IMG/VR virus record: IMGVR_UViG_3300042860_000755 | Coordinates: 1 to 59,275 of that record | Source of the DNA: a virus | Length of the DNA: 59,275 nucleotides | Direction: 5' to 3' (one strand) | Shown here: positions 3,005-58,324 of the stretch, piece after piece | Layout: each line of letters starts with the position of its first letter | Numbering within the stretch: the first letter of the stretch is position 1 | The notes under the pieces: generated by a model | The model's database searches: none | Told to the model about the DNA's origin: nothing | What the model saw: the letters and a program-made list of their open reading frames with translations, nothing else | Program-made: the position numbers and the translations under genes

Positions 3005-4051
3005 ATGGCTAAAAGACGTATTCGCGCAGCAGAGCTTGCGGGTTTGGCCGCGCTTGGCGCTTTTGGTTACAACTTCTTTGGCCCAGGGCGCGACAAAAAG
3101 GCTGGGGAAAGACGTGCTGACGTAGAGTATCGAGGGACTGATCGTCCGCCCGCAGAAAGTGTTGCAGCCGCCCCAGCAGCCCCCGCAGTTTCGACGGCCC
3201 CACAAGCTCAAAGACCTGTGGCCAGCGTTGATGACGGCGACATTGGCCGGTTTGCGGATGTTGGGTCCAACTTTAACGAAACTGGACAACCGTACAATCC
3301 TGTTGGGTCGTCTGCCACTTATCGTCCGCGCCCTCGCCCTCCTTTTGTCGCCGACGATTCTCAGCGCAGGGCTAATGCCGCTGCTGATGCGATGTACGAA
3401 AATCGCGCGTCTGCTAATCGGCGCACCAGTGTTGATCCCACCACTCTAGAGGGATATGGTGTAAACGAAGTTGGTCGTGGCAGGGCTCCCGTCTCGCGTG
3501 TTAATGCAAGCGCCCGCCAATACAACCAAGACAGCCAAGGGAATCGAGCAGGAACTCAAGCTGATGGCGGCCCGCCAATCACAGAAGAAATGCGTCGAAA
3601 CCCAGTCGCAAGGATTCCCGGTCAAGATGCCAGGGCACCTGAAGATGGTCGTCGCGTGACTGGCGGCAATATCTCAAGGAATCTTGCAAATATGGCGGCT
3701 GCCCTTGGTCCAACCAGGGCTGCCGGATTTGGTAATGCCGCAGTTGAGGCCGCAACTGCAAGGGGTGCCCTTCAAAGGGCTGCTGCTGCACGGGCGGAGC
3801 GAACAGAAGCTGCTCGTCGCGGTCAAACGCCAACCAACCTCACGAGCACAAAATCAAGTTCAACCGCCAGGACGAACGAAGCCTCCAAGCGGACAAGAAA
3901 GTTTGACGAAGACTCTGAGAACGTTGAGTTTAAACGTGGCGGGAAGACAAAGGCCATGCCAAAGAAGATGGCTTCTGGCGGCATGTCGTCTGCATCCAAA
4001 CGCGCTGACGGCATTGCCTCCAAAGGCAAGACCAAGTGCAAAATGTACTAA
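3005..4051 (+). CDS. Virion-cluster protein with hydrophobic N-terminus and KGKTKCKMY tail
   Basis: 348 aa from the ATG at 3005, chosen because GGAGG lies 6 bases before it. It opens MAKRRIRAAELAGLAALGAFGYNFFG, a hydrophobic N-terminal segment very like that of the 4811 gene, then a long Pro/Ala/Arg-rich disordered region. The end has KKMASGGMSSASKRADGIAS followed by KGKTKCKMY. It contains an exact GTTTAAAC read as Glu-Phe-Lys-Arg (3928). Function unknown; the context is head/connector genes. Confidence 0.6.
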   Translation: MAKRRIRAAELAGLAALGAFGYNFFGPGRDKKAGERRADVEYRGTDRPPAESVAAAPAAPAVSTAPQAQRPVASVDDGDIGRFADVGSNFNETGQPYNPVGSSATYRPRPRPPFVADDSQRRANAAADAMYENRASANRRTSVDPTTLEGYGVNEVGRGRAPVSRVNASARQYNQDSQGNRAGTQADGGPPITEEMRRNPVARIPGQDARAPEDGRRVTGGNISRNLANMAAALGPTRAAGFGNAAVEAATARGALQRAAAARAERTEAARRGQTPTNLTSTKSSSTARTNEASKRTRKFDEDSENVEFKRGGKTKAMPKKMASGGMSSASKRADGIASKGKTKCKMY

Positions 4052-4060
4052 GGGCAAACC

Positions 4061-4288
4061 ATGTCAGAAAAACCCAGGAAACCCAAGCAAGTCTTGAACC
4101 CTGCTGAACAGCAAATGATTCAGGAGGAAAAGGACAAGCAGATGGCCCCCAAGCTGGAAAGTGCTTACAACAAGGCGCTGACCACCACGGTTCCCGCTCC
4201 CGCCCCGGTTGACAAAAAAGCCAAGGGTGGCGTCACTCGCGCCGACGGCTGCATCACTAAGGGCCACACCCGTGGCAAGATGGTGTAA
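4061..4288 (+). CDS. Small basic protein with RADGCITKGHTRGKMV tail
   Basis: 75 aa: a Lys/Glu/Gln-rich helical first half (RKPKQVLNPAEQQMIQEEKD), a TTVPAPAPVDKK linker, then AKGGVTRADGCITKGHTRGK, the clearest short version of the shared C-terminal signature. Ten bases separate it from the upstream gene. No known family; a role in virion assembly is inferred from neighbours and composition only. Confidence 0.6.
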   Translation: MSEKPRKPKQVLNPAEQQMIQEEKDKQMAPKLESAYNKALTTTVPAPAPVDKKAKGGVTRADGCITKGHTRGKMV

Positions 4289-4290
4289 AT

Positions 4291-4818
4291 ATGATGTCCA
4301 GCCGTGGCATGGGGGCCATCAACCCCAGCAAGATGCCCAAGAAGAAGGTCATCCATCGTAAGGATGACCCGAATACCGTGGACATGTACGCGGCTGGCGG
4401 CGAGGTGGAATCAAAATTTGAGCCGGTTAAACCAAACTATGGCATGAGAGCCATGGGTGGCTCTGGAGAGACTGGTTCCGGTGCTGGCGGACGGTTTACG
4501 GTTCAAAAAAATCTTGGCAAAGACCTTGACCTTGAGGCGTATCTGGAAGGTCAAGCGTTTAAACCAAAGGGTATGTCGCCTAAAGGTGAGATAACAGGTG
4601 GCGGAGTTAAATTGACCAAGAGGTTTGCCAAGGGTGGCAAGACAGAATCCAAGGTCAATCAGGCTGGTGTCTACACCAAGCCGGGTATGCGCAAGTCGCT
4701 GTTTGAGTCAATCAAGTCTCGGGCGGTGCAGGGCACAGGCGCAGGCCAATGGTCGGCCCGCAAGGCACAGTTATTGGCCAAGCAGTACAAAGCGAAAGGC
4801 GGTGGTTATCGTGGCTAA
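4291..4818 (+). CDS. Conserved basic virion-cluster protein
   Basis: 175 aa. It holds several Ala-x-Gly-Gly elements (MYAAGGEVES, RAMGGSGE, RFAKGGKTES) and a conserved-looking C-terminus: NQAGVYTKPGMRKSLFESIK, then QWSARKAQLLAKQYKAKGGG. I recall this last block from other phage proteins of unknown function. An exact GTTTAAAC at 4557 encodes Ala-Phe-Lys-Pro. The end overlaps the GTG start of the next gene. Confidence 0.65.
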   Translation: MMSSRGMGAINPSKMPKKKVIHRKDDPNTVDMYAAGGEVESKFEPVKPNYGMRAMGGSGETGSGAGGRFTVQKNLGKDLDLEAYLEGQAFKPKGMSPKGEITGGGVKLTKRFAKGGKTESKVNQAGVYTKPGMRKSLFESIKSRAVQGTGAGQWSARKAQLLAKQYKAKGGGYRG

Positions 4819-5326: not shown

Positions 5327-5556
5327 AAGACCCGCAGCAATCGCTCAAGGACTGGGGTGACCAGAAGTGGCGCACCAAGTCCGGCAAACCGTCTTCCAAG
5401 ACGGGGGAGCGATATCTGCCTGAGAAAGCCATCAAGGCTCTCAGCCCAGCCGAGTATGCCGCTACGACTCGTGCCAAGCGGGCAGGCAAGAAGGCCGGGA
5501 AGCAGTTTGTGAAGCAGCCGCCCAAAGTGGCGGCAAAGACAGCAAGGTATCGGTGA
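5323..5556 (+). CDS. Small basic protein, DUF5872-like
   Basis: 77 aa, with QQSLKDWGDQKWRTKSGKPS, then KTGERYLPEKAIKALSPAEY and a Lys/Arg-rich end (TTRAKRAGKKAGKQFVKQ). This matches a conserved family recalled as DUF5872. It starts with an ATGA overlap on the previous gene and ends on another overlap. The charge pattern suggests nucleic-acid or virion-interior binding; no experiment is known to me. Confidence 0.7.
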   Translation: MKDPQQSLKDWGDQKWRTKSGKPSSKTGERYLPEKAIKALSPAEYAATTRAKRAGKKAGKQFVKQPPKVAAKTARYR

Positions 5557-6491
5557 TGGCTACCACATCCGGCGCAAGCAGTTTTAACCTTGACCTGACC
5601 GAGTTGGTCGAGGAGGCGTTTGAACGCGCCGGTTCAGAGTTGCGCACGGGCTATGACCTCAAAACTGCCCGACGCAGTTTAAACATCATGTTTGCCGATT
5701 GGGCGAACCGTGGCATCAACCTCTGGACGATTGAGCAGGGCACGATTGACCTTGTGCCGGGGCAGAACACCTACGCTTTGCCGACCGACACGATTGATCT
5801 TCTGGAGCATGTGATCCGCACTGGGGCCAACGTGGCAGCAACTCAGGCAGACCTGACCATCACCCGGATCAGTGTTTCCACCTACGCCACGCTGCCCAAC
5901 AAGCTCCAGCAGGCCCGACCGATCCAAGTCTGGGTCCAGCGGTACAACGGCCAGCAGAGCCCGACCGGCCTGTCCATCAGCGGCGGTGGAATCAGTGCCA
6001 CCGTCAATCAGATTACCCTCAACTCTGTGGTTGGCCTGCCCGCCACGGGGTTTATCAAGGTTGACTCTGAAATCATCAACTACGGATACATCTTAGGGAA
6101 TACCCTATACAACTGCTTCCGGGGTCAGGCCGACACCACAGCCGCATCCCACGCCAACGGGGCAGCGGTTTACTGGCAGCAGCTTCCTGCTGTCACGGTC
6201 TGGCCAACGCCGGACAACGCCCAGCAGTATCAGTTCGTGTACTGGCGTCTGCGCAGAACGCAGGATGCTGGTGGCGGTGTAAACGTCATGGATGTTCCCT
6301 TCCGGTTCATCCCGTGCATGGCGGCTGGCTTGTCCTATTACATCGCCGGGAAAATCCCTGGCGGCATGGAGCGACTGCCCATGCTGAAGGCCCAGTATGA
6401 CGAGGCTTGGCAGTTGGCCGCCGATGAAGATCGTGAGAAGGCTGCGATTCGGTTCGTGCCCCGCCAGCAGTTCATTGGGAGCACTTACTGA
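5556..6491 (+). CDS. Head-tail connector / tail accessory protein (P22 gp4-like position)
   Basis: 311 aa from the ATG at 5556 (TGATG overlap; a GTG three bases earlier is possible). The N-terminal helices (LDLTELVEEAFERAG, GYDLKTARRSLNIMFADWAN) followed by INLWTIEQGTIDLVPGQNTY are typical of podovirus head-completion or tail-accessory proteins that close the portal. The middle contains a small beta domain (SGGGISATVNQITLNSVVGL). The role would be joining the portal to the tail nozzle. Contains GTTTAAAC at 5677 read as Ser-Leu-Asn. Confidence 0.65.
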   Translation: MATTSGASSFNLDLTELVEEAFERAGSELRTGYDLKTARRSLNIMFADWANRGINLWTIEQGTIDLVPGQNTYALPTDTIDLLEHVIRTGANVAATQADLTITRISVSTYATLPNKLQQARPIQVWVQRYNGQQSPTGLSISGGGISATVNQITLNSVVGLPATGFIKVDSEIINYGYILGNTLYNCFRGQADTTAASHANGAAVYWQQLPAVTVWPTPDNAQQYQFVYWRLRRTQDAGGGVNVMDVPFRFIPCMAAGLSYYIAGKIPGGMERLPMLKAQYDEAWQLAADEDREKAAIRFVPRQQFIGSTY

Positions 6492-22867: not shown

Positions 22868-22905
22868 TTGAACAAATAAACCCCCCATGATAGACTCGTT
22901 TAAAC
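22868..22905 (+). promoter_or_regulatory. Sigma70-like promoter followed by GTTTAAAC, before the ejection-protein genes
   Basis: TTGAAC (22868-22873) and TAGACT (22891-22896) are spaced 17 bases apart. The exact palindrome GTTTAAAC (22898-22905) lies where transcription would start. This is one of few gaps between late genes and would give the three large ejection proteins separate control. Confidence 0.5.
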
Positions 22906-39899: not shown

Positions 39900-40084
39900 T
39901 TGACCCTCCGCATTGCCATCCACTCAGGCTCTTTGGACTCAAGCGGTGGCGGGGCCTTTCGCAACTCACTGGGCGGCACCCAGCCGTACTTGCGCCATAA
40001 CTTCTGAACATCAGCGCCTGATGTCCACTTGAATTCTGGATGCCCAACAGGAATCCATGGGTCTGATCGTTTAGCTGCCATCAT
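39896..40084 (-). CDS. Small basic early protein
   Basis: 62 aa from the first of two ATGs at 40084/40081 after AAGGAGAGTG. DPWIPVGHPEFKWTSGADVQ then KLWRKYGWVPPSELRKAPPP. Overlaps the upstream gene by 14 bases. Unknown. Confidence 0.55.
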   Translation of the reverse strand: MMAAKRSDPWIPVGHPEFKWTSGADVQKLWRKYGWVPPSELRKAPPPLESKEPEWMAMRRVK

Positions 40085-40301
40085 CACTCTCCTTCTCAAA
40101 AAAAATATCTGCGATTGGCATACTTGCGGATATCCAAAAGCCAGACTTGTTTAAACTCATTCCCCTTGCAATCATTTCTTCTGTCGTCAGGCATCGACGA
40201 TCATGTCCATGATTTCCGACCCGATGTTTGTCAAAGGCAAAGTTGCTGTTGAAATACTGACTACACCCCCGGCACTGATTCTTTTGTCCCGTCAGATTCA
40301 T
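40071..40301 (-). CDS. Small zinc-finger-like early protein
   Basis: 76 aa. NQCRGCSQYFNSNFAFDKHR then VGNHGHDRRCLTTEEM has C2H2/C-H spacing typical of a zinc finger (two Cys, then His, His, Cys); MIARGMSLNKSGFWI follows. Proteins of this kind recur in phage early regions. The ATG at 40301 lies inside the upstream gene (about 40 bases overlap). Contains GTTTAAAC at 40149. Confidence 0.65.
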   Translation of the reverse strand: MNLTGQKNQCRGCSQYFNSNFAFDKHRVGNHGHDRRCLTTEEMIARGMSLNKSGFWISASMPIADIFFEKESDDGS

Positions 40302-40602
40302 TGTTGGCCTCCTTCATGCGACGAACGATCAGGTCGTCTGTTACCAGTTCAGCAAAAGACTTCCCAGATGGGAACCTCATCTGCGCGTGTTTCATGGCGT
40401 TGACGGCATCTATGGCCACTTGTAGCCCGTCATTGAAGCCGCTGACATAAACGTTGCCGCCAGAGATTCGGGCGGTAACCGCTTCTCGCACAAGCTGGGT
40501 CATGGGTATTTTGTTTTTTGCCGCAAACTTCTTGAGCTTGACGTACTCCCGTGGATCAAGGTACGTCAGAAACGGTTTGTAGTTGTTAGAAGGGATCGGC
40601 AT
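40261..40602 (-). CDS. Ribbon-helix-helix-like early regulator
   Basis: 113 aa from the ATG at 40602 (GGAGCC upstream). The segment FLTYLDPREYVKLKKFAAKN followed by KIPMTQLVREAVTARI reads as a beta strand plus two helices, like MetJ/Arc DNA-binding proteins. The helical C-terminus (DGLQVAIDAVNAMKHAQ) may oligomerise. Candidate early repressor. Confidence 0.6.
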   Translation of the reverse strand: MPIPSNNYKPFLTYLDPREYVKLKKFAAKNKIPMTQLVREAVTARISGGNVYVSGFNDGLQVAIDAVNAMKHAQMRFPSGKSFAELVTDDLIVRRMKEANNESDGTKESVPGV

Positions 40603-40978
40603 TTTGGCTCCAGTTTTCAAAGTCAAGTACGACAGCATCAAACTTCTCTTGGGCATCTGAGTTGCCGTTCAGTTCAGAGCGAGACTGAATGCCACATCGT
40701 TTGCAAAGATTTCTTGCGGCCATTTCTTCATTGATGGCGCTCATGAAAGCCTGGAAGCTTTGCTGTTTACACAGTAGCGCAGCCTTTTGCACGCGGTTTG
40801 TGTATGGCGTTGGCGATTCGTCGTCCTGTATGCGTACAAGGGCACAGGCATAACGAGCGCCAACAAAATCCCGAAGAAGCTCTTCCGGTATTTCATCGGG
40901 GTGCAGGCACAGGGTCAGGACGTAGCCCGTCCTGTCCTGTTTCAATGCAATCTTCCTGGCTTCAAACTGGAGCGCCAT
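40586..40978 (-). CDS. Early protein of unknown function with Cys pair
   Basis: 130 aa: LQFEARKIALKQDRTGYVLT, LCLHPDEIPEELLRDFVGAR, then QKAALLCKQQSFQAFM and NLCKRCGIQSRSEL. LCKxxxFxxFM and the CxxC are recurrent in phage proteins near recombination genes. Overlaps both neighbours. Function unknown. Confidence 0.6.
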   Translation of the reverse strand: MALQFEARKIALKQDRTGYVLTLCLHPDEIPEELLRDFVGARYACALVRIQDDESPTPYTNRVQKAALLCKQQSFQAFMSAINEEMAARNLCKRCGIQSRSELNGNSDAQEKFDAVVLDFENWSQNADPF

Positions 40979-43834: not shown

Positions 43835-44284
43835 ATGTCAGCGAGCGATGATCATAGTACAAGCACAGAAGGTTTGCAAGCGATATCACAAATTATTTTG
43901 GGGGAGCCTGCGTCCAAGGCGAACAGCCGCAAGATCGTGCGCTTCGGCAATGTCAGCCGATTGATCAAGTCCTCGAAGGCGCTGTCCTACGCAGAGATGT
44001 TTAAACAGCAATGCTCGCCGCTGGCGGTGTTGATGAAGGGCGATCTGCGGGTGACGATGTGGATTCACTACGCCTCACGCAGACCAGACTTGGATGAGTC
44101 TCTAGTCCTTGATCTGATGCAGGGGCTGATCTATGAGAACGACCGTCAGGTCAAAGAGAAGCACATCTACTGGAACCTTGACCCTGGGAATCCCCGCACA
44201 GAGATCATCGTGGAGTGCATCCCTTCTGTCGTGCCAGAAAAAAAGCCCCGCACGGGGCGGGGCAAGAGAAGGGCAACTGCATGA
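43835..44284 (+). CDS. RusA-like Holliday-junction resolvase
   Basis: 149 aa. The core SRRPDLDESLVLDLMQGLIY followed by ENDRQVKEKHIYW matches RusA: Asp85 and Asp87 (PDLD) and Asp103 (ENDRQ) correspond to the catalytic acidic residues, with Glu-Asn in place of the more common Asp-Asp. The end is basic (RTGRGKRRATA). It would resolve branched DNA before packaging. Divergent from the exonuclease. Contains GTTTAAAC at 43999. Confidence 0.82.
   Translation: MSASDDHSTSTEGLQAISQIILGEPASKANSRKIVRFGNVSRLIKSSKALSYAEMFKQQCSPLAVLMKGDLRVTMWIHYASRRPDLDESLVLDLMQGLIYENDRQVKEKHIYWNLDPGNPRTEIIVECIPSVVPEKKPRTGRGKRRATA
43851..43879 (-). promoter_or_regulatory. Strong leftward early promoter
   Basis: Read on the minus strand: TTGCAA (43879-43874), a 17-base spacer, then TATGAT (43856-43851). 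This is close to consensus and sits 36 bases before the exonuclease ATG, so it can drive the whole ~7-kb leftward early operon. It lies inside the 5' end of the RusA gene. Confidence 0.65.
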
Positions 44285-44392
44285 AGCAGGCGGGTGGAGA
44301 CAACCCGCGCTGTCAGTATACCCCTGATACGTCTGATACGCCGATACGGCTGACGCCCTCCTGCGGAGGGTGTACATGTTTAAACATACAAC

Positions 44393-46289: not shown

Positions 46290-46518
46290 ATACCAGAACT
46301 ATGACGGCACCCCCGCAGTCAAGAAGAAGCGGGCGCAGAGAAACAAGGCCCGCAGGATGCTGGAGAGAGAGGGAGTCGTCACCAAAGGCGACGGCAAGGA
46401 TGTGGATCACATCACCCCTCTCGGGAAGGGTGGTAAGACTACCCGCAGCAACTTGCGCGTCAAGTCCGCCACCGCCAACAGATCGTTTAAACGGAAATCT
46501 GATGGCAGCCAAAAATGA
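46270..46518 (+). CDS. Small HNH-like protein
   Basis: 82 aa from the ATG at 46270. Basic N-terminus (VKKKRAQRNKARRMLEREGV), then GKDVDHITPLGKGGKTTRSN and LRVKSATANRSFKRK. DVDHI...GG.....NL is the core of HNH nucleases (Asp-His, then Asn), here in a minimal form without Cys pairs. Overlaps the primase-helicase start. Contains GTTTAAAC at 46485. Confidence 0.65.
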   Translation: MRDYKAEYQNYDGTPAVKKKRAQRNKARRMLEREGVVTKGDGKDVDHITPLGKGGKTTRSNLRVKSATANRSFKRKSDGSQK

Positions 46519-48194
46519 TTGAAGAGATTCTGCGTCAGCAGTACTTCGACAACACCGCACGGGTCGTATGCCCGTTCTGCTTGCCAGAGCGCAAGAAGAA
46601 AAACATCAAAGACATGACGCTGACCCGCAAGCCTGACGGGGCAGTCCTCTATCACTGCCATCACTGCGCCGCCATGGGATCGGTGCAACCCCCAAAACAG
46701 GAGAGAAAATTGTCAGCCGTACCCAACCCAGTGATCACAAGCGAGAGGCTTGAGGACAGGCATTACGCTTACTTGGAAAGCAGAGGTATCAGTCGCCAGA
46801 CAGCAGACAGAGCAAAGCTGTTCAGTGCAAACAAGTGGTTCGCCAAACTCGGCAGGGCCACAGAGTCAATCGGGTTCCCCTACTTCAGAAACGGGGCATT
46901 GGTCGCAGCCAAGTACCGATCAATCGAAGAGAAAGACTTCACGCAAGAAGGCGGCGGGGCTCATGATTTCTTCGGCCTTGAACACATCGAGAAGGGCCAG
47001 CCCATCATCATCGTCGAGGGTGAGATGGATTGCCTATCCGCCATGGAGGCAGGTTTAAACAACGTGCTTAGTGTTCCCGCCGGAGCGCCCATCAAGGTGG
47101 CAGATGGCAAGGTTCTCCCATCAGAAGATAAACGCTTCGCCTACGTCTGGAACGCCAGAGACATCATCGACGCAGCCCCATACGTCGTGCTTGCAACAGA
47201 CCAAGACACCCCCGGCCAAGCACTCGCAGAAGAGTTGGCAAGGCGCATCGGAAAAGAAAAGTGTCGCGTAGCCAAGTTCGCCAAAAAGGATTTGAACGAA
47301 GTCCTGCTCGATCACCCCTCTCAGGTAGCTACGGTCATCAATGCCGCCGAGCCGTATCCGATCAGCGGCATCAGCGAGGCAGACAAGTTTAAACAGTCAA
47401 TTGAAGACCTCTACGCCAAGGGCAACGGACGTGGCATCAGCACTGGCTATCAGTCCCTGGATGAAATCTACACGGTCGGGCCTGGGCAGTTGACGGTCGT
47501 CACTGGCTACCCTTCATCGGGCAAGTCCAACTTCGTCGATCAGTTGATGGTCAACCTCGCCCGCAAAAACGATTGGAAGTTCGTTGTCTGCTCGTTTGAG
47601 AACCAGCCCGAAACCCACATTGTCAGGCTGATGGAAATCTACACGGGAATGCGTTTCCATGATGGCAGAGACAGGATGAATGCGGAGACAAAAGACAAAG
47701 CGTTTAAATGGGTCAATGATCACTTCATCTTCATGGACACAAACGGTGAAGAGCCAAGCACATTGGAGTCGATACTTGAGCGAGCCAAGGCATCGGTCAA
47801 ACGCATGGGTGTTCGGGGCATGGTGATTGACCCGTACAACTACATTGACATGAGCCGCAAGGATACGGCTGAGACTGAGGCTATCAGCAACATGCTGACC
47901 AAGGTGAGGAAGTTTTGCATGGCGCACGAAGTCCATTGCTGGTTCGTGGCGCATCCAGCCAAGATGACGCGATCAGGGAATGATCAGCCCCGCCCAGATG
48001 GCATGAGCATCAGCGGGTCTATGGCATGGTGGGCAAAGACGGACTGCGGCATCACAGTCCACAGGGGACAGGGCGCAGTCGTCGAGATAGCGGTCTGGAA
48101 GTGCCGCTACAGATGGATTGGTTCTCAGGGTGAGACCAGCCTGCTCTACAACAAGACCGCAGGCATTTACACGGAAAATTTGGATGCATTCTGA
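46515..48194 (+). CDS. Bifunctional primase-helicase (T7 gp4-like)
   Basis: 559 aa. Zinc finger Cys19-Cys22/Cys48-Cys51; TOPRIM with Glu169 (IIIVEGEMDCLSA) and Asp229/Asp231 (LATDQDTPGQ); RecA-fold helicase with Walker A GYPSSGKS (331-338), FVVCSFENQPETHIVRLMEI, GMVIDPYNYIDMS, and WFVAHPAKM. All elements expected of a hexameric helicase with a fused primase are present. It unwinds and primes the replication fork. No polymerase is encoded nearby, so it may work with the host replisome. GTTTAAAC at 47053 and 47387. Confidence 0.92.
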   Translation: MIEEILRQQYFDNTARVVCPFCLPERKKKNIKDMTLTRKPDGAVLYHCHHCAAMGSVQPPKQERKLSAVPNPVITSERLEDRHYAYLESRGISRQTADRAKLFSANKWFAKLGRATESIGFPYFRNGALVAAKYRSIEEKDFTQEGGGAHDFFGLEHIEKGQPIIIVEGEMDCLSAMEAGLNNVLSVPAGAPIKVADGKVLPSEDKRFAYVWNARDIIDAAPYVVLATDQDTPGQALAEELARRIGKEKCRVAKFAKKDLNEVLLDHPSQVATVINAAEPYPISGISEADKFKQSIEDLYAKGNGRGISTGYQSLDEIYTVGPGQLTVVTGYPSSGKSNFVDQLMVNLARKNDWKFVVCSFENQPETHIVRLMEIYTGMRFHDGRDRMNAETKDKAFKWVNDHFIFMDTNGEEPSTLESILERAKASVKRMGVRGMVIDPYNYIDMSRKDTAETEAISNMLTKVRKFCMAHEVHCWFVAHPAKMTRSGNDQPRPDGMSISGSMAWWAKTDCGITVHRGQGAVVEIAVWKCRYRWIGSQGETSLLYNKTAGIYTENLDAF

Positions 48195-48770: not shown

Positions 48771-48784
48771 CTCATCTCTCCGGT

Positions 48785-49018
48785 TTAAACGCGCCGCGCA
48801 TAGTTGACTGCGCTGCGCAGGTTGTTGAATGTATTGGCCCTCAGTGGGCCGTCTGTCGTCTTGATGTAGACCGAGAATGCCAGCCCATCAAAGGCGATGT
48901 ATCGCTCCCCGTGGCCCAGGTATCGCTCATCATCGACTAGGTCAACGATGCCGTCGAGGGCGTATGCTTGTTTTAAAAACACGGGGTGCCGGTTTGTCAC
49001 TGCTCTGATGGTTCTCAT
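48785..49018 (-). CDS. Small protein coupled to the VWA gene
   Basis: 77 aa: MRTIRAVTNRHPVFLKQAYA, LVDDERYLGHGERYIAFDGL, then TTDGPLRANTFNNLRSAVNY. ATGA overlap with the VWA-metallopeptidase gene suggests coordinated expression. The stop TAA is inside an exact GTTTAAAC (48783-48790). Function unknown. Confidence 0.55.
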   Translation of the reverse strand: MRTIRAVTNRHPVFLKQAYALDGIVDLVDDERYLGHGERYIAFDGLAFSVYIKTTDGPLRANTFNNLRSAVNYARRV

Positions 49019-50589
49019 GCGGCCAGCTTGATCTGCTTGAACGACACTGTGCCCAGGTCGCCAACGTCAGTGATCCGCACCGACTGCGGGTAGACATTTG
49101 CAACGTCCTGCTCGATGCCGATGCCGATGGTGGTGATCCCCAGGTTATTGCCTGCCAAGCATTGCTGCCGCACTGCCATAGGCTTGCCGATGCCATCGGT
49201 GATGACAAAGCAAATCTTGCGCTGCTCGGGCCGACTGAGCAGCAGCTTGTGGGCATACCGCACCGCAAAGTAGTCGTTGGTTGACCCGCCGTTGCAAATG
49301 CTGTTGATCTTTGCCGCAGCCTTGAGCGAGTGTTCTCCCCAGGGCTTGACCACTGAAGTGAACGAACCAAAGGCAAGGACGCAGGTCTCGACCTGGGCCT
49401 TTTGCAAAGTATCCAGCAGCGCCCGGGTTGCCATAGCAGCCTGGACGATGCGGTTGCTCATGTCGTACCTTTTATTTTTCTTGCCGTCATCAAACATCGA
49501 GCCCGAAACATCGAGACAGATCACCACCGCAGAGTCGATCCCCTCGACCGCATGGCGGCGCTGGAACAGCTTGTCAGTGGTGCCGATCTTGTGCAGGGCC
49601 GAGACATTGATGGAGCCAGACCGACGGTTGCGCTGGAAGTCCTCGCGCCCAGAGTTGTCGAACAGGCGCTTGACCTCATACCGCAGCCGCGCAGGCACCG
49701 CCAGTTGATCGTTGAGCCAGTGATGCCGCAGGTGATGATTAGGCTCAGTCAGCGTGGCATTCTCAGACCATCCCCCGATGCCAGCCTTGCCCTCGGGCAT
49801 ATTGATGGAGGGTTCGACCTCGACTGCCTCGTCAGATTTTTTAGGAGCCCGAGCAGAGCCGGGGCTTTTGTGCGGGTTGTCGTCGAGCCTGGAGCCCTTA
49901 TCGGCCTTGCCTGCACCCTCACCCTTGCCGTCATCAGATGGAGCCTCTGAGGGGCTTTTGGGAGCCTTGGCGGGGCTGTTTTTGGGCAGAGCCTGGAGTT
50001 GATCCATGATCCACTCAGCCAGGGCCAGCGTGTCCTTGGATGAGCGGCAGGCATCAATCCGCTGAGTCGCGCCGATGATGACGGGCTCCAGGCCAGCAGG
50101 CACCGGGACATGGGTGTTCAGATGCCGCCGCAGGTAGACCGCGAAGATAAACGGGTATTGAGCAGGGTCTGCCCAATCAGTCACCGTGGCATTGGCCTCG
50201 CCAACGATCTGATCCAGCAGCGCCGTCAGCAGCCCATCGATGTTGCCGGTCAGCTTGGCATCGATCCCGGTGTGCTCGATCCATGCATCCTCGACCGCAT
50301 TGTGCAGTTGGTTGACGTACTGGTCACCATGATTGACGTTGAAGTTGGTATATTTTTGATGCAGCAGTTCATGTACCACAAACCCGACATAGCGCTGAAC
50401 GTCAATGTCGTAAAGCACTGCATCATCAGCAACGTCAGCGAAGTAAATGTCGCCGTCCTTGTTGGTGCCTGCGGTCTGAATGCCTGCATGCCAGTTGATG
50501 GTTCTGATGGCTGCACCAAACTCGGCTGCAACCTTGCGCGTCAAATTTTCAACTGCCTGTTTAAACTGGAACCCGTGATAGCGTTTCAT
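49015..50589 (-). CDS. VWA-domain protein with HELLH metallopeptidase motif (CobT-like)
   Basis: 524 aa. Residues 73-77 are HELLH (VVHELLHQKY), with NAVEDAWIE (97-105) supplying a possible third zinc ligand. A Lys/Pro/Ser/Asp-rich linker spans ~204-265. The C-terminal VWA domain has the MIDAS signature Asp360-x-Ser-x-Ser (CLDVSGSMFDDG), then GGSTNDYF and VITDGIG. VWA proteins pair with MoxR-type AAA+ ATPases, and one lies directly upstream. Automated tools might call it cobaltochelatase CobT, but no cobalamin genes are present. Probably the substrate-handling half of a remodelling or proteolysis machine. GTTTAAAC at 50559 encodes Gln-Phe-Lys-Gln. Confidence 0.75.
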   Translation of the reverse strand: MKRYHGFQFKQAVENLTRKVAAEFGAAIRTINWHAGIQTAGTNKDGDIYFADVADDAVLYDIDVQRYVGFVVHELLHQKYTNFNVNHGDQYVNQLHNAVEDAWIEHTGIDAKLTGNIDGLLTALLDQIVGEANATVTDWADPAQYPFIFAVYLRRHLNTHVPVPAGLEPVIIGATQRIDACRSSKDTLALAEWIMDQLQALPKNSPAKAPKSPSEAPSDDGKGEGAGKADKGSRLDDNPHKSPGSARAPKKSDEAVEVEPSINMPEGKAGIGGWSENATLTEPNHHLRHHWLNDQLAVPARLRYEVKRLFDNSGREDFQRNRRSGSINVSALHKIGTTDKLFQRRHAVEGIDSAVVICLDVSGSMFDDGKKNKRYDMSNRIVQAAMATRALLDTLQKAQVETCVLAFGSFTSVVKPWGEHSLKAAAKINSICNGGSTNDYFAVRYAHKLLLSRPEQRKICFVITDGIGKPMAVRQQCLAGNNLGITTIGIGIEQDVANVYPQSVRITDVGDLGTVSFKQIKLAA

Positions 50590-50597
50590 GATTTACC

Positions 50598-52034
50598 TCA
50601 AATGTTGTCGTTGAAAAAGTCAATGTTGATGCAGGCATCGAAGATGCCCATCAGCGTGGCGTGAGATTCGACGGGTTGCCGAGCAACGACAGTGGTCGTC
50701 CAAGCCTCACGCAGGGGCAGCACTTGTATTGCCCTGGCAAAGGCAATCGCCGAGCGAATCGAGGGTGCGTCCACAATGTCGGCACTCTTGACCTTGTGCC
50801 GTGCAACCTCGATGGCGTGGTGGATAGCCATGGCGATAGCCTTGTTGCAGCCAGCGCGGCGGGTGATAGCCTCGATCTCAGAGTCCTTTGGCAGGTAGTC
50901 AAACTGGATCACCCGAGAGAAACGATCCACCAGGGCACTGTTCTGCATCCGGGTGCCGGCGTGTCTACCACTGTCGTCACCATTGCCAAAGGTGTTATCG
51001 GCAACGAAAACCAGCACCCCCTCGGCGCGGGTATGGGTAAGACCACCAAACGATACGGCGGCGTTGGGCTCCAGAAAACCATTCAGCGTTGCCAGTTCGC
51101 CAGGGTCAGCGTTGGTGACCTCATCCAGCAGGATGACGGTCGAGGGCATGGCATAGGCCAGCAAAAAGTCTTTTGGCTGGAACACCGTCTTGTTGTTCTC
51201 AAAGCCAGTCGCTCCGACATACTCTTCGACGGTTGTGTGCTTGTGGAAGTTGATGCGTTTAAACCCGCGTCCGGTACGGGCTGCAAACTGTCGGGCAGTC
51301 TCAGACTTGCCGGTGCCCTTCTCGCCGCCAAACCAAAGGTTCTCGCCCGTCCAATCAGATAGCAGCAGGTGCTTGAGAATGCCCTCAGTCCAGATGAAAT
51401 CGGGGTCTACCGCCGGGGCTTGGGGGTGGTTCCACAGGTCAACCATCAGCGGCTGACCCTTAACATCGAAAACATCGATGCCGAAAACCTCAAGGCAGGT
51501 CTTGCTGCTGGTGCGGTGCGCGGCGGTCTGGTCGGCCACAACCTGTTGGGCACCCGCATCCTCGATGCGTTTAGACCAGCGTGAAAAATGGTCGCCGATT
51601 ATTGCGTCCACTGCTACCTTAATGCTACGGTCATCAATCTTGATGCCTTTGATCTTGTCGGTCAGTGTGTTGGCCTTGTGCTCGACGCGAGCCATTGTCT
51701 GGATCACTGCGCTGATGTTAGCCTGGAGGTCATCGACCCGATTGAGGGCCGACAGGGCATCGGCTTTGGCATCAGATGCAACCTGCGAGGCGGCATCAAC
51801 CTTGGCACCGATGGCGGGGTCAAAGGTCGGCGCGGCCTTGAAGACCGATGGGGTTGCGGCCATGATGTTGTTCATGCTGATGGTTCCAGCATCGACCGCC
51901 TCGGCCAGCCAGCGGCTTGCATCGGTCTTGGTTATCCCGGCCTGTGGGTTGGGGTGGTATTGGTTATAGGCACCTGCCACAACGGGCAGGGGCAGACGGG
52001 CGATCTGGATGACGATCTGGGAGAGGTTTGCCAT
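50598..52034 (-). CDS. MoxR/CobS-like AAA+ ATPase
   Basis: 478 aa. Walker A GGEKGTGKS (236-244), Walker B ILLDE (301-305), sensor-1 Asn347 (VFVADNT), and Arg fingers in ALVDRFSR (371/374). The N-terminal ~200 residues form a long helical region (ASQVASDAKADALSALNRVD, QANISAVIQTMARVEHKANT), which is unusual for CobS and may be a substrate or partner adaptor. It would form hexamers that act on the VWA partner. Nine bases from the VWA gene. GTTTAAAC at 51258. Confidence 0.82.
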   Translation of the reverse strand: MANLSQIVIQIARLPLPVVAGAYNQYHPNPQAGITKTDASRWLAEAVDAGTISMNNIMAATPSVFKAAPTFDPAIGAKVDAASQVASDAKADALSALNRVDDLQANISAVIQTMARVEHKANTLTDKIKGIKIDDRSIKVAVDAIIGDHFSRWSKRIEDAGAQQVVADQTAAHRTSSKTCLEVFGIDVFDVKGQPLMVDLWNHPQAPAVDPDFIWTEGILKHLLLSDWTGENLWFGGEKGTGKSETARQFAARTGRGFKRINFHKHTTVEEYVGATGFENNKTVFQPKDFLLAYAMPSTVILLDEVTNADPGELATLNGFLEPNAAVSFGGLTHTRAEGVLVFVADNTFGNGDDSGRHAGTRMQNSALVDRFSRVIQFDYLPKDSEIEAITRRAGCNKAIAMAIHHAIEVARHKVKSADIVDAPSIRSAIAFARAIQVLPLREAWTTTVVARQPVESHATLMGIFDACINIDFFNDNI

Positions 52035-52052
52035 GATTCACTTTCGGTTGGG

Positions 52053-53291: not shown

Positions 53292-53306
53292 GGTTCGTTC
53301 TCCGGT

Positions 53307-53486
53307 TTAAACGTTGTTGATGATGGTCAGGACGGTGTAAACGCGAACACCGCGCCGAGCCAATTGCTTGGCGTCATGGGTGATGCCGATCTTGGCCCCG
53401 CGCAGAGTCTTGTATTGCTTGCCCGTCTCGGCCCACAAGTAGCCGAGTTGGTTGCGAATCAGGGTCACTGATTGGGTCTTATGCAT
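53307..53486 (-). CDS. 59-aa basic protein ending inside GTTTAAAC
   Basis: MHKTQSVTLIRNQLGYLWAE then TGKQYKTLRGAKIGITHDAK and RRGVRVYTVLTIINNV. TGATG overlap at the start; the stop TAA lies in the GTTTAAAC at 53305-53312. Too short for ordinary gene calls, but it fits the operon exactly. Confidence 0.55.
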   Translation of the reverse strand: MHKTQSVTLIRNQLGYLWAETGKQYKTLRGAKIGITHDAKQLARRGVRVYTVLTIINNV

Positions 53487-54214: not shown

Positions 54215-54419
54215 CTGTATTGAACCCGTTGCCGGGGAAAGCCTGAAAGCTTTTTACCTCCACAGACCGACCTTATCGCGGGCCGTTCGCACTAGACTCG
54301 ATCGTCTCTGCCTCGCTAGCACTATCAAGCAATCACTTGATATCACTAGGGCATGGAACGGACTGTAGCGGGTTTAAACCAGCCTGTCAACAACCCCACG
54401 ATTTAGTCGGGTATTAGAC

Positions 54420-54582: not shown

Positions 54583-54787
54583 TTATCCACAATGGTGTGG
54601 ACAAGTCAAAGTTATCCACAGCCTGTGGACAAGTTTTGTAGTACTTGAGTATTGCAACCAGGGTTTAAACGGGCGATCGTGGCCTGGGTAAGGGGTAGGG
54701 TAGGGTAAGTGGTTTTTGACGCGAAACTTACAACTTCTGTGGATAAGTTGTGGATGACGGTTGGAGTTATTCACAGCCTGTGGATAA
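54583..54787. other. Candidate replication origin with DnaA-box cluster
   Basis: DnaA-box-like 9-mers: TTATCCACA at 54583-54591 and 54612-54620; TTATTCACA at 54767-54775; reverse-strand TTATCCACA at 54738-54746 and 54779-54787; variant TTGTCCACA (reverse) at 54596-54604 and 54624-54632. Two pairs form head-to-head dyads with the same GCC/T spacing (54612-54632 and 54767-54787). GTTTAAAC lies at 54372, 54663 and 54820. Non-coding, between divergent operons. It would bind host DnaA; no dnaA gene is present in the window. Confidence 0.75.
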
Positions 54788-54844
54788 CCTGATAGACTGC
54801 GATGCGAACGGTGGTTCAGGTTTAAACGGTGAAGGGGTGATGCG

Positions 54845-55540
54845 ATGGGCATGGGGAATGATCAGATGCGGGGCAATGGCAGGGCGACAAAAGATGATCT
54901 ACTGCGAAGGCTGGAGGAAGTGATGCTCGATGGTGATGGAAACCAGAACGATCAAGAGCCCGGACTGAGCGAAGCGGAGCGGTTAGCCAGAGACGCAGTT
55001 CCCCCAAAGCGTAGGGTAGACGGAGAGATGGTCGGAACACCCAGAGCAAAGCCAATGACAAGCTCCATGATGGAGTTCGCCAAAGGGCTTATAGAGGGAA
55101 AGACACAGTTAGAGGCGTACCAGAACGCATACCCCAATGGGAAGGCAACAGATAGGACACTGAAGACAGCAGCATGGAAGCTAGCGCAAGACCCAAGGAT
55201 ACAAAGGATGCTGCAAGAGCATTGGGGTCAGACAGTGGAAGCGCTGACGGATGATGCAGTGGCGGTGAAACGATATGTGATCAAGTCGCTGCTGGAGTTG
55301 AGCAAAGAAGCAAAGCAGGAGGGCTCCAAACTCAAGGCACTGGAGTTGATGGGCAAGACAGTGGGAATGTTTAAACAGACTGTGCAAGAGGATGACGACA
55401 GTGTGACCGCAGACCAACTGAAGCAAGAGCTTGCGAAGCACATGCGTCTAGTGGGCAATGTGCGTAGAGTGAGCAAGGCGCAGATCATTGAACTGCCCTC
55501 TACGGTCATCAGTGAGCCGGTGGAGCGAGGACAGGTTTAA
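54845..55540 (+). CDS. Terminase small subunit
   Basis: 231 aa. A disordered charged N-terminus, then MTSSMMEFAKGLIEGKTQLE, AYQNAYPNGKATDRTLKTAA and WKLAQDPRIQRMLQEHWGQT, the helix-turn-helix layout of Terminase_2-like small subunits, followed by a helical oligomerisation region (KRYVIKSLLELSKEAKQEGS). Recognises phage DNA and recruits TerL, encoded two genes later. GGGGTGATGCG precedes the ATG. The stop TAA is inside GTTTAAAC (55535), and another copy is at 55369. Confidence 0.8.
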   Translation: MGMGNDQMRGNGRATKDDLLRRLEEVMLDGDGNQNDQEPGLSEAERLARDAVPPKRRVDGEMVGTPRAKPMTSSMMEFAKGLIEGKTQLEAYQNAYPNGKATDRTLKTAAWKLAQDPRIQRMLQEHWGQTVEALTDDAVAVKRYVIKSLLELSKEAKQEGSKLKALELMGKTVGMFKQTVQEDDDSVTADQLKQELAKHMRLVGNVRRVSKAQIIELPSTVISEPVERGQV

Positions 55541-55735
55541 ACGGGGGAGTGGCATCAGTGATGGCTGGGAGGGAGGGAGAGACACCCCCACCCCCCGCTT
55601 TGGCAGATGGGTCCCCCTCCTCGCCTTACGCTCGATTCCACTCATCCGATCATCCCCAAACACAAACGTTCGCACCCACCCCCATCCATTTCCAATTCCC
55701 AACCCCCACCCCTATATATTTTTGAAATTACTGAC
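55541..55735. other. Purine-to-pyrimidine-biased intergenic tract
   Basis: GGGAGGGAGGGAGAG (~55568-55582) is followed by strongly C-rich DNA (CACCCCCACCCCCC, CCCACCCCCATCC, CCCAACCCCCACCCC) to about 55721, then an AT-rich TATATATTTTTGAAATT. CAAACGTTCGC occurs at 55663-55673 and again at 55739-55749. No gene is seen. Next to terS, it could hold a packaging (pac) site or a transcription control region. Confidence 0.4.
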
Positions 55736-55779
55736 TTGCAAACGTTCGCTATTGTGTTTAAACTTTGTTTGGTTTAAAC
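55736..55779 (+). promoter_or_regulatory. Promoter with AACGTTCG and two GTTTAAAC copies
   Basis: TTGCAA (55736-55741) and TAAACT (55759-55764), 17 bases apart. AACGTTCG lies in the spacer, GTTTAAAC (55756-55763) covers the -10, and a second copy follows at 55772-55779. It would drive the HTH and terminase large genes. Arrangement parallels the promoter at 43783. Confidence 0.5.
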
Positions 55780-55794: not shown

Positions 55795-55986
55795 ATGATT
55801 GATTACGCCCACCCCACGATGATGGCTGAGAAGGCTTTGAGGGAGCTTCATGAGGCGATGCTTGCTCGCAGGTTTGAGGATGCGCGTCAGGCGGCTTTGC
55901 GGTGCATGGTTGAGTGCAAGATTGCGTACCACAGCATTCGGGTGATGGAAGAGGAATATGTCAGCAAAGCATCAACTCGTGCTTGA
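55795..55986 (+). CDS. Small helical protein before the LexA-like gene
   Basis: 63 aa from the ATG at 55795 (TTTAAGG upstream). MIDYAHPTMMAEKALRELHE, AMLARRFEDARQAALRCMVE and CKIAYHSIRVMEEE: a single helical hairpin. AEKALRELHEA.....f..A...a is frequent in phage proteins near terminase genes. Overlaps the next gene by 29 bases. Confidence 0.6.
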   Translation: MIDYAHPTMMAEKALRELHEAMLARRFEDARQAALRCMVECKIAYHSIRVMEEEYVSKASTRA

Positions 55987-56188
55987 TTTCATCCGGGCGT
56001 ACATTCGGCTTCATGGGATGTCTCCTTCTTACCAGACGATTGCTTCTGGTGTGGGGATGAAGTCAAAGGCGAATATTCACCGGATCATCCATAAGTTGCA
56101 GGATGAGGGGCTTTTGACTATTCGCCCCTACAAGTTCAATTCGATCAAGTTGATTGACCGCAGTGCTCGTGAGGTGTCTGCTCTATGA
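55958..56188 (+). CDS. Stand-alone LexA-type winged-helix protein
   Basis: 76 aa. QLVLDFIRAYIRLHGMSPSY, QTIASGVGMKSKANIHRIIH, then KLQDEGLLTIRPYKFNSIKL aligns in style with the N-terminal DNA-binding domain of LexA (helix-turn-helix then wing). There is no C-terminal peptidase, so RecA-triggered self-cleavage is not possible. Probably a transcription regulator of late or packaging genes; AACGTTCG sites upstream are candidate operators. ATGA overlap with TerL. Confidence 0.72.
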   Translation: MSAKHQLVLDFIRAYIRLHGMSPSYQTIASGVGMKSKANIHRIIHKLQDEGLLTIRPYKFNSIKLIDRSAREVSAL

Positions 56189-57693
56189 CGTTGCTGACCC
56201 GGCAGGAGATTGATGACTATGAGGGGATGATTCCTCTGGTTGGGCTGGAGCAGCGCAGGAAGATACAGAAGCTTTTGGAGTTGGACAAGCGGGAGAGGTG
56301 CCGGGAGTCCTTCATCTTCTTCGTGTCGCAGATGTGGCCTGTGTTTATTTCGGGCAAGCATCATCAGATCATGGCTGATGCTTTTGAGAGGGTGGCCAGG
56401 GGTGAGTTGAAGAGGTTGATCATCAACATGCCGCCCCGGCATACGAAGTCGGAGTTTGCTTCTTACCTGCTCCCGGCTTGGTTTCTTGGGATGTTTCCTG
56501 AGAAGAAGATCATCCAGACCGCCCACACCGCAGAATTGGCTGTTGGTTTTGGCCGGAAGGTGAGGAACTTGGTCTCGTCCAACGAGTACCAGAAGGTCTT
56601 TCAGACGGAACTTTCTTCTGATTCCAAGGCTGCGGGGCGGTGGAATACCTCTGTTGGGGGTGATTACTTCGCCATCGGTGTTGGCGGTGCTGTCACGGGT
56701 AAGGGCGCTGATCTTTTGATCATTGACGACCCGCATTCTGAGCAGGAAGCCAAGCAAAACAACCCCGCCGTCTACCACGGGGTCTATGAATGGTACACAT
56801 CCGGCCCCCGGCAGCGTCTTCAGCCTGGGGGTTCAATCATTATTGTGATGACGCGGTGGTCAAAAATAGATTTGACCGGCCAAGTCATGAAAAATTCGGA
56901 AAAAGACGGCACAGATGCGTGGGAAGTCATCGAATTTCCCGCAATTTTGCCCTCCGGAACCCCTCTTTGGCCCGGATTTTGGAAAAAAGAGGAGCTTGAA
57001 GCCATCAGGGCTGAGATTCCAGTGTCCAAATGGAATGCTCAGTACCAACAAAACCCCACATCCGAAGAAGGCGCTATCGTCAAGCGCGAGCAATGGCAAA
57101 TTTGGGAGTCAGAAATGCCCCCGCCATGCGAATACATCATCCAGTCCTGGGATACAGCCTTTGAAAAACACAACCGCGCAGACTACTCTGCATGTACTAC
57201 GTGGGGAGTGTTTAAACATCCCGATTCCAAGGGCAACTACAAGACAAACATCATCCTTCTTGACGCCTTCAAGGACCGAATGGAGTTTCCTGAACTCAAG
57301 GCCAAGGCCATTGAGATGTACAAGGAGTGGAACCCAGACACCCTGATCGTTGAAAAGAGGGCCGCTGGTGCCCCTTTGATCTACGAGCTTCGCCAAACCG
57401 GCATCCCTCTTTCAGAGTACACACCAAGCAAGGGACAGGATAAGATTGCGCGTGTAAACGCAATTTCAGACCTGTTTGCGTCTGGCGTGGTCTGGTGTCC
57501 AGATACCCGCTGGGCCGATGAACTCATGGAAGAGATGGCCGCGTTCCCTAATGGCGACCATGATGACTTGGTTGACTCGGCGTCACAGGCTCTTTTGAGG
57601 TTCAGGCAGGGCGGATTCATCCCAATCGACTCGGATGAGCCCGAAGAGACGATTTATTTTCGCGGTCGCAAAGATCGCTTCTATACCGTGTGA
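56185..57693 (+). CDS. Terminase large subunit
   Basis: 502 aa. ATPase: Walker A-like NMPPRHTKSE (81-90), Walker B LLIIDDP (177-183), and IIIVMTRWSKIDL (C-motif area). Nuclease: Asp323 (SWDTAFEKHN), Glu390 (TLIVEKRAAG) and GDHDDLVD (457-464). Translocates DNA into the head and cuts it. The first ~200 codons are strongly G-rich on this strand, while the rest is C-rich, hinting at a mosaic joint near 56.7-56.9 kb. GTTTAAAC at 57210. Confidence 0.93.
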   Translation: MTLLTRQEIDDYEGMIPLVGLEQRRKIQKLLELDKRERCRESFIFFVSQMWPVFISGKHHQIMADAFERVARGELKRLIINMPPRHTKSEFASYLLPAWFLGMFPEKKIIQTAHTAELAVGFGRKVRNLVSSNEYQKVFQTELSSDSKAAGRWNTSVGGDYFAIGVGGAVTGKGADLLIIDDPHSEQEAKQNNPAVYHGVYEWYTSGPRQRLQPGGSIIIVMTRWSKIDLTGQVMKNSEKDGTDAWEVIEFPAILPSGTPLWPGFWKKEELEAIRAEIPVSKWNAQYQQNPTSEEGAIVKREQWQIWESEMPPPCEYIIQSWDTAFEKHNRADYSACTTWGVFKHPDSKGNYKTNIILLDAFKDRMEFPELKAKAIEMYKEWNPDTLIVEKRAAGAPLIYELRQTGIPLSEYTPSKGQDKIARVNAISDLFASGVVWCPDTRWADELMEEMAAFPNGDHDDLVDSASQALLRFRQGGFIPIDSDEPEETIYFRGRKDRFYTV

Positions 57694-57700
57694 GGAATAG

Positions 57701-58324
57701 ATGGATTACGACACGATTTTGAAAGCTGTTGGAGAGGAGCCGGAGTATTTGTTCCGCACTTCGCGGGGGTCTGCCTATGGTCATTACCCCGACAGCAGCA
57801 CGGTGCGCAACAGGTCGGGAGAAGGCCATAAAGACACAACCACCGGCCTGCAACCCCGTTCTGGCAAAACCGTTTACATGAGCCCGCAGGATGTAAACCG
57901 GATGGCAGGGATGTTCCAAAACGCGGAACTTGCGACGCAGTTTAAACCGTCGTCTTTCAACAAAGAGACGAAGAGCGGCACTGCGGCACTGACCTACGCG
58001 CAAGACTACGGCCCAAAAAAAGCGGGCACCGTCATTCATGAGGCGCAGTTCACCACAGTCCCCAGGAAGGGGCTAATCCCAGTTGAGATTAACCGCAGCG
58101 AAAGCCCAATAGGCGATTCTGGTCGAGGCATACATTGGGGGACTCCAATCACAGAAGTTGTGCCTAGAGGTGGCATGGGACGGGGTGTAGTTGGAACTCC
58201 GGCCCAGATGGGCGGCGGCGCTGGAAGCACCATACGCGCTTTAAACCTACAGAAATTAATGGCTGCTGGCGGCGCTGTAAAGATGCCCGATTCCTACAGC
58301 CAGGGTGGCTGGAAACTTATTTAA
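57701..58324 (+). CDS. Conserved protein between TerL and portal, with AAGGAVKMPDSY tail
   Basis: 207 aa. YLFRTSRGSAYGHYPDSSTV near the start, MSPQDVNRMAGMFQNAEL in the middle, and a C-terminus LQKLMAAGGAVKMPDSYSQG then GWKLI, a block I recall as recurrent in phage proteins. It contains one more example of the Ala-x-Gly-Gly element seen in the virion proteins. Function unknown; possibly packaging or head related. GTTTAAAC at 57940 encodes Gln-Phe-Lys-Pro. Confidence 0.6.
   Translation: MDYDTILKAVGEEPEYLFRTSRGSAYGHYPDSSTVRNRSGEGHKDTTTGLQPRSGKTVYMSPQDVNRMAGMFQNAELATQFKPSSFNKETKSGTAALTYAQDYGPKKAGTVIHEAQFTTVPRKGLIPVEINRSESPIGDSGRGIHWGTPITEVVPRGGMGRGVVGTPAQMGGGAGSTIRALNLQKLMAAGGAVKMPDSYSQGGWKLI

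Follow-up and report, generated by a model that had tools for sequence, protein, structure and literature searches.

A dispersed palindromic octamer as the putative operator of a lone LexA-type protein in a clade of uncultured phages

Introduction

Cluster A mycobacteriophages are temperate phages in which an L5-type repressor, a monomeric protein of two domains, has more than 20 sites spread over the genome, one of which is proposed to be autoregulatory (PMC6550527, PMC9283540). These sites are 13 bp long and asymmetric, are oriented with transcription and lie in promoters and short intergenic gaps, and from one relative to the next the motif changes in step with the repressor (PMC6550527, PMC9283540). 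Another iterated element is HIP1 of cyanobacteria, an 8-bp palindrome that occurs far above expectation and is switched for another word in some lineages (PMC4390886), and for which methyltransferase-linked biased repair has been proposed (Elhai 2015, PMC4390886). The present work concerns an iterated octamer, GTTTAAAC, in a tailed phage represented by the IMG/VR record IMGVR_UViG_3300042860_000755, all 59,275 bases of which form the window analysed here. Judged from sequence and predicted structure, the octamer is probably the operator of the phage's own autoregulated LexA-like repressor, multiplied into a genome-wide array. No paper on GTTTAAAC as an iterated phage palindrome was found in the open-access literature.

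Over-representation of the octamer

The window holds 29 exact copies of GTTTAAAC, the first at 3928 and the last at 57940-57947, which corresponds to a density of 489 per Mb. It is the top-ranking 8-mer of the window, and the next 8-bp palindrome reaches only 6 copies. A first-pass annotation, made from the sequence alone, had reported the same 29 copies as far above chance and had proposed a Markov-model count. The recount agrees with it: the Markov expectation is about 0.6 at orders 0-2 and 2.2, not about 29, at order 3 (above order 3 the expectation is inflated by the sites themselves), while 100 dinucleotide-preserving shuffles gave a mean of 0.64 copies and a maximum of 3. Chance and base composition as the source of the excess are ruled out by these shuffles and models. 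When the 29 sites are aligned with 15 bases on each side, the flanks carry at most 0.13 bit, so that the element is exactly eight bases long; a longer repeat or a mobile element is ruled out by the same absence of flank conservation. Two degenerate forms, ATTTAAAC/GTTTAAAT and GTGTAAAC/GTTTACAC, are also enriched in the window.

About 19 of the 29 copies lie inside genes, and non-coding DNA is enriched about 2-3-fold. Our own assignment of reading frames agrees with the earlier one: 14 copies are read as x-Phe-Lys, 5 as x-Leu-Asn and 3 as Val-stop, and 7 are intergenic. The uneven spread described in the first-pass annotation is likewise real, with no copy at 5.7-22.9 kb and 11/29 copies at 53.3-57.9 kb. 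In the window and four relatives, the structural half carries 1.0-4.3 sites per 10 kb and the replication/early half 6.2-13.5, the module borders having been set by eye from orthologue positions; the depletion of the structural half reaches binomial p values of 0.0001-0.002. The replication/early half taken together with the gene for a giant polyvalent protein holds 5.6-13.5 sites per 10 kb in each of the five genomes.

Distribution across related phages

A search with the terminase large subunit (TerL) returned 80 relatives at 79-100% identity, whose contigs, overlapping in part, contain 419 copies of GTTTAAAC in 751 kb. The octamer is the top 8-bp palindrome in most of them. Long relatives carry 49 copies in 63.5 kb, 35 in 64.0 kb, 23 in 63.4 kb, 21 in 58.4 kb and 5 in 50.7 kb, and the relative with only 5 exact copies uses a variant form of the octamer. 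The excess is thus a trait common to a whole clade of uncultured phages. More distant phages with a homologous terminase have few copies or none, namely 0 in DSL-LC04 and 3 in 023Pt_psg01 (whole records), and 1 in HTVC027P and 0 in Pag-Yong1 (50-kb stretches). DSL-LC04 has a homologous TerL and capsid, yet its whole record is free of the octamer.

This distribution bears on the possibility that a host protein reads the site, either a nucleoid-associated protein or a regulator, of which a host-wide signature is one form. Such a reading gains from the fact that the putative operator described below overlaps sigma70-like elements that a host regulator could use. A host search by TerL found no relatives among some 85,000 genomes of bacteria and archaea. 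The host-protein reading is nevertheless unlikely. Of 299 Pseudomonadota genomes, a sample that may not include the host, none has more than about 54 octamers per Mb, compared with 489 in the window, and the density is usually no higher than that of a reversed control word, which leaves the host-wide signature suggested in the first-pass annotation without support. The array is missing from homologous phages, DSL-LC04 among them, and a shift of the motif, described below, follows a phage lineage.

Selection on the sites

In synonymous-codon shuffles, 1.3 coding copies are expected in the window and 18 are observed, in keeping with the earlier proposal of a DNA-level element that goes beyond protein sequence. 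The same shuffles give observed/expected values of 30/1.8, 10/0.7, 14/0.8 and 22/1.5 in four relatives, and of 18/1.8 and 19/0.8 for the degenerate form in two other genomes. Codon usage and protein sequence are ruled out by them as the source of the excess. The encoded peptides are affected as well. Octamer-permissive x-Phe-Lys-y peptides number 75 in five genomes, compared with 27 +/- 5 in shuffled proteins, and by this count the proteins themselves are bent to fit the octamer. At lysine 344 of TerL, the codon is AAA in 33/34 sequences, against 37% AAA at other TerL lysines, and at TerL column 363 the octamer is present when the next residue permits a codon starting with C. A reading of saturation, with the octamer at every protein-permissive position (94/147), was withdrawn because it is partly circular, the permissive peptides themselves being in excess; the empty Phe-Lys positions, of which there are 25, stand at chance level (27).

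The sites are also retained between relatives about twice as often as 8-mers of the same composition, which answers in the affirmative the question of conservation raised by the first-pass annotation. Where homologous stretches are 80-85% identical, the sites are retained in 67% of cases, as opposed to 29% of same-composition 8-mers, and at 85-90% identity the values are 78% and 45%. With each site of the window counted once, retention is 0.59 for coding sites versus 0.31 for matched 8-mers (p ~0.003) and 0.66 versus 0.35 for non-coding sites (p ~0.005). These comparisons indicate that the array is kept by selection.

Degeneracy of the octamer

Enrichment of single changes, pooled over five genomes, depends on the position within the half-site. 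Changes at position 3 are enriched (GTGTAAAC 10.7x, GTATAAAC 3.5x, GTCTAAAC 2.6x), as are those at position 1 (ATTTAAAC 10x, CTTTAAAC 3.9x, TTTTAAAC 2.4x). Changes at position 2 are not (0.9-1.3x), and at position 4, C or G stands at 1.0-1.1x and A at 2.2x. The half-site is strict at positions 2 and 4 but accepts G>A at position 1 and T>G at position 3, so the tolerated set includes a transversion. Mutational decay would enrich transitions everywhere and is disfavoured because the observed degeneracy is position-specific. This pattern suggests that the octamer behaves as a putative protein-binding site.

The same pattern argues against a mechanism like that of HIP1, in which methylation is coupled to biased mismatch repair, or in which the octamer serves as a methylation or self mark. 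A palindrome of 8 bp that is iterated both inside and outside coding sequence does resemble HIP1, and to this extent the likeness drawn in the first-pass annotation stands; it is one of appearance only, with no methyltransferase and no host signature seen. No methyltransferase, and hence no candidate phage enzyme for the suggested methylation mark, turned up in the scanned proteins of the window or in the genes that the clade conserves, although a host enzyme is possible. A fixed position in one promoter and placement before particular genes, both described below, are not expected of a repair drive, nor is a position-specific degeneracy that includes a transversion. This explanation is very unlikely.

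The LexA-like protein and its promoter

The proposed binder is a lone LexA DNA-binding domain protein of 76 aa, encoded on the plus strand at 55958..56188, where its gene overlaps the start of the TerL gene. It matches the Pfam family LexA_DNA_bind (PF01726, 2.4e-9), and its best match in a profile search (HMM) against the PDB is 1lea. The AlphaFold model (pLDDT 81) has three helices and a two-stranded wing, that is, a winged helix-turn-helix, and its best Foldseek match is the LexA-DNA complex 3jso (TM 0.82, rmsd 1.0). The recognition-helix residues K37, N39, H41, R42 and H45 do not vary among the nine diverse members of the first alignment. The protein ends shortly past the wing, without the C-terminal S24 autopeptidase/dimerisation domain, and is classified as a lone LexA-type domain rather than as LexA because it has only 76 aa and the S24 domain is missing. 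The gene is present in 77/80 TerL relatives, in some of them cut by the contig end. In DSL-LC04, which is without the array, a search of 50 kb that took in the TerL region gave no match to it, and this supports the operator reading. Linkage alone is not proof that the gene product reads the site, because array and gene are co-inherited in one clade.

Upstream of the lexA-like gene, the octamer is built into a predicted promoter (55713..55764, plus strand). In the window, TATATATTTTT at 55713-55723 is followed by a -35 element, TTGCAA, at 55736-55741, and by a -10 element, TAAACT, at 55759-55764; the 17-bp spacer contains AACGTTCG, and the -10 lies inside the putative operator, the GTTTAAAC copy at 55756..55763. 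A second putative operator, at 55772..55779, stands 16 bp downstream of this copy. The block stands ahead of a small leader gene of 63-73 aa (55795..55986, plus strand) that in the window's subclade lies between the operators and the lexA-like gene. Across the clade, the block reads TATATATTTTT, then CTTGC[GA]AACGTTCG, about six bases (N6), and then GTTTAAACT. In this block, TTGC[GA]A would be the -35 and TAAACT, separated from it by 17 bp and contained in the octamer, the -10.

Promoter counts were made on 72 non-redundant upstream regions of lexA-like genes. In the alignment of these regions, the arrangement TTG[CA][AG]A-N17-TAAACT, with the -10 inside GTTTAAACT, recurs in 51/72, and in five others the octamer comes just after a TACAAT/TATAAT-type -10. 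GTTTAAAC lies within 300 bp upstream of the gene in 61/72, and in 69/72 if RTTTAAAY is allowed. The octamer is thus placed as an autoregulatory site would be in 61/72 regions, 51 of them over the -10, which is evidence of placement only. A promoter -10 at every GTTTAAAC site was considered and rejected, since a consistent -35 is seen nowhere but at the lexA-like promoter. As a separate observation, a second palindrome, GCGAACGTTCGC, covers the -35 of this promoter (AACGTTC is found in 71/72 upstream regions). In relatives such as L159, L046 and L114, a CCCCCCGGGGGG stretch followed by TATATATATTTTT lies upstream of the gene, at the place of 55705-55745 in the window, where this GC stretch is degraded. 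The CCCCCCGGGGGG-TATATATATTTTT-GCGAACGTTCGC stretch may be a terminator or may serve a second regulator as its operator.

A change of motif in one subclade is accompanied by a change in the protein. There, 53 distinct GTTTAAAT/ATTTAAAC contexts are found against 9 of GTTTAAAC, while the remainder of the clade has 790 of GTTTAAAC against 221 of GTTTAAAT/ATTTAAAC. Residue 64 of the LexA-like protein, in the second wing strand, is S, A or T in 11/11 proteins of the shifted subclade and K or R in 134/134 others. The co-change is suggestive only, because it is one event with several linked differences. The shifted sister clade comprises G006 (L101-L102), L020-L022 and L024-L029, with an array on the asymmetric GTTTAAAT/ATTTAAAC; in G006, a 27-kb record, exact GTTTAAAC is absent.

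Another conserved DNA-binding protein of the phage could read the site instead, for example a ribbon-helix-helix (RHH)-like protein encoded on the minus strand at 40261..40656. RHH dimers read short palindromic boxes, a box of 8 bp suits them better than it suits LexA domains, and the RHH-like gene is conserved together with the array in G002-G006. Its Pfam match (RHH_3, 0.0026) is below the cut-off, however, and no conserved GTTTAAAC lies near it (only in G002, at -27), unlike the lexA-like gene, whose promoter is built around the octamer. With no operator at its gene, the RHH-like protein was set aside as the binder, and the broader idea of another phage protein is quite unlikely.

Sites upstream of other genes

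Placement near gene starts was counted for sites within about 60 bp of a start, for which 3% is expected by density. The octamer occupies this position in 44/76 lexA-like genes, 11/18 leader genes, 31/51 genes for the terminase small subunit (TerS) and 10/29 genes for a MoxR-like ATPase. It does so in 0/35 capsid genes and in 0/80 TerL genes, TerL sitting inside the operon. Within 110 bp upstream of TerS, it is found in 35/56 sequences. In the window, the TerS gene (54845..55540, plus strand, phrog_51), a proposed target, has a site 17 bp before its start (54820..54827), a placement that is kept in relatives. A DnaA-box cluster at 54583..54787 adjoins this site and those at 54372 and 54663. 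It contains all four perfect boxes (TTATCCACA) of the window within 205 bp, upstream of TerS, and is likely, from its sequence, a replication origin that uses host DnaA.

The clustering of sites near the terminase genes and the DnaA-box region could also be taken to indicate a recombination or packaging signal, that is, Chi-like or terminase-tracking sites, and Chi-like sites, too, are numerous and occur within genes. The Chi sites that are known have an asymmetric, oriented sequence, whereas the octamer is palindromic and has flanks without signal, and a signal of this kind would leave the operator position at the -10 of one gene unexplained. It is the least probable of the explanations considered, and we regard it as extremely improbable.

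Proposed mechanism and its weak points

Among the options listed in the first-pass annotation, a binding site for a phage regulatory protein is the one that placement, degeneracy and the LexA fold support. The 76-aa LexA-like protein (55958-56188) would bind GTTTAAAC and would prefer it over GCTTAAAC/GTTCAAAC. The copies over the -10 of its own promoter would act as an autoregulatory operator, and the predicted repression would fall on an operon of the leader gene, the lexA-like gene and TerL, the latter two probably being co-transcribed. Through the copies upstream of TerS and by the DnaA-box cluster, TerS would probably, and origin firing perhaps, be controlled by this protein as well. The other copies, for the most part in early, replication and polyvalent-protein genes, would be the same site multiplied by selection.

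The role of the intragenic array is more speculative. A growing number of genomes could soak up the repressor by titration, so that packaging would be timed after replication; alternatively, bound protein could act as a roadblock that damps early transcription. That the sites are biased towards early genes speaks for an action on these genes, and the turnover of exact positions favours titration. Titration and damping both fit the array. A more far-reaching version holds that the dispersed sites of a lytic lineage are a genome-copy counter, in which replication titrates the repressor, releases terminase synthesis and times the packaging switch; this is offered as a tentative and unlikely possibility.

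Several points weigh against the LexA-like protein as the reader of the site. In known LexA sites, several bp separate the half-sites (CTGT-N8-ACAG in E. coli), and by comparison the abutting GTTT-AAAC half-sites need a different geometry. The protein is without the LexA dimerisation domain. Homologues of its DNA-binding domain (38-44% identity) occur in another phage group without the array and without an upstream operator. These phage genomes with the array share further conserved regulators, the RHH-like protein among them. A simple repressor would have no need of sites within genes, yet that is where most copies lie. The residue-64 change is a single evolutionary event with about nine other differences alongside. 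The site 30 bp before the primase-helicase gene counts less because it is also the codon run SFKR of the upstream gene, and counts across loci are not independent, because the sampled loci are related, many of them closely, and partly overlap.

As a side observation on the other phage group, the viral contigs L163-L182 (GC 40-45%) carry a lone LexA domain with a nearly identical helix, KSKGNIHRII, and no GTTTAAAC array. An array as the automatic companion of any phage LexA-domain protein is ruled out by these contigs and by JY39.

Genes and individual sites of the window

The window encodes the capsid protein (106-846), SU10-type adaptors, a Sak single-strand annealing protein and a PD-(D/E)XK nuclease. 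No integrase was found among the proteins scanned, a subset of the open reading frames. The first three sites lie in coding sequences, at 3928..3935 (in 3005-4051, Phe-Lys frame), 4557..4564 (in 4291-4818, Phe-Lys frame) and 5677..5684 (in 5556-6491, Leu-Asn frame). After the long gap, an intergenic copy at 22898..22905 stands 19 bp ahead of the coding sequence 22925-25066. The giant polyvalent protein (27593-36730; 3,045 aa, with ADP-ribosyltransferase (ART-PolyVal) and LPD38 domains) contains six sites in its gene, at 29263..29270, 30306..30313, 31785..31792, 32905..32912, 33607..33614 and 36091..36098.

Further sites lie in the coding sequence for a zinc-binding protein (40149..40156, in 40071-40301) and in that for a RusA-like resolvase (43999..44006, in 43835-44284), and one is intergenic (44378..44385). 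The copy at 46485..46492, at the end of an HNH coding sequence (46270-46518), is the one 30 bp before the primase-helicase gene (46515-48194), and this placement recurs in 17/33 relatives; two more copies are found inside the primase-helicase gene (47053..47060 and 47387..47394). A site at 48783..48790 overlaps the stop codon of a minus-strand coding sequence (48785-48982). The region 49015-52628 is a conserved cassette that encodes a VWA/CobT-like protein, a MoxR-like AAA ATPase and a SprT-like zinc protein and occurs in all six long relatives; sites lie in the VWA/CobT-like (50559..50566) and MoxR-like (51257..51264) coding sequences.

In the terminase region, a copy at 53305..53312 overlaps the stop codon of a minus-strand coding sequence (53307-53468). 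The intergenic copy at 54372..54379 lies ahead of the DnaA-box cluster and that at 54663..54670 inside it. TerS contains a site at 55369..55376 and has another over its stop codon (55535..55542). TerL (56185..57693, plus strand, phrog_38 1e-109), in the same predicted operon as the lexA-like gene, carries a site at 57210..57217 in VFKH codons, which is present at this place in 32/80 TerL sequences, and the last site (57940..57947) falls in the coding sequence 57701-58324.

Comparison with known systems

If the proposed reading is right, the genome of this phage would seem to be composed around a regulator that it encodes itself. To our knowledge, no binding protein is known for HIP1 and other iterated palindromes, which is partly why they are unexplained; here the array comes with a candidate protein, a promoter, likely target genes and a natural shift of specificity between sister clades. 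The purpose of dozens of identical intragenic sites is directly testable by means of the 76-aa candidate and short DNA. If the proposal is true, dispersed operator arrays extend past temperate mycobacteriophages to an uncultured group with numerous members in metagenomes.

With the LexA family, the system shares the DNA-binding domain, as judged by Pfam, fold and HMM, and an octamer in the gene's own promoter; the half-site GT[T/G]T resembles the CTGT half-site of E. coli LexA. It differs from that family in having no peptidase/dimerisation domain, in half-sites that abut and in dozens of sites per genome. A second parallel is offered by datA and the chromosomal DnaA boxes, dispersed sites that couple the availability of a regulator to genome copy number. 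If the titration reading is true, the sites described here would gauge copy number in the same way, although DnaA boxes lack symmetry and are bound by an initiator, whereas here the protein is repressor-like and encoded beside the terminase. HIP1 is likewise an over-represented 8-bp palindrome of coding and non-coding DNA, but it is a signature of host genomes tied to methyltransferases, and the octamer is a trait of a phage clade tied to the promoter of a regulator.

In its proposed way of working, the system is nearest, by analogy, to the operator/stoperator arrays of Cluster A mycobacteriophages. Both have a dispersed array, which here amounts to 29 putative sites in the window and 21-49 in four relatives. 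The site of the present phages is an 8-bp palindrome with no flank signal, not a 13-bp oriented one; it is mostly intragenic, not mainly confined to promoters and short gaps; and the candidate regulator is a lone LexA-type domain in a genome whose scanned proteins include no integrase. Taken together, these features suggest a dispersed phage operator array that combines a palindromic, mostly intragenic site with a lone LexA-type domain.

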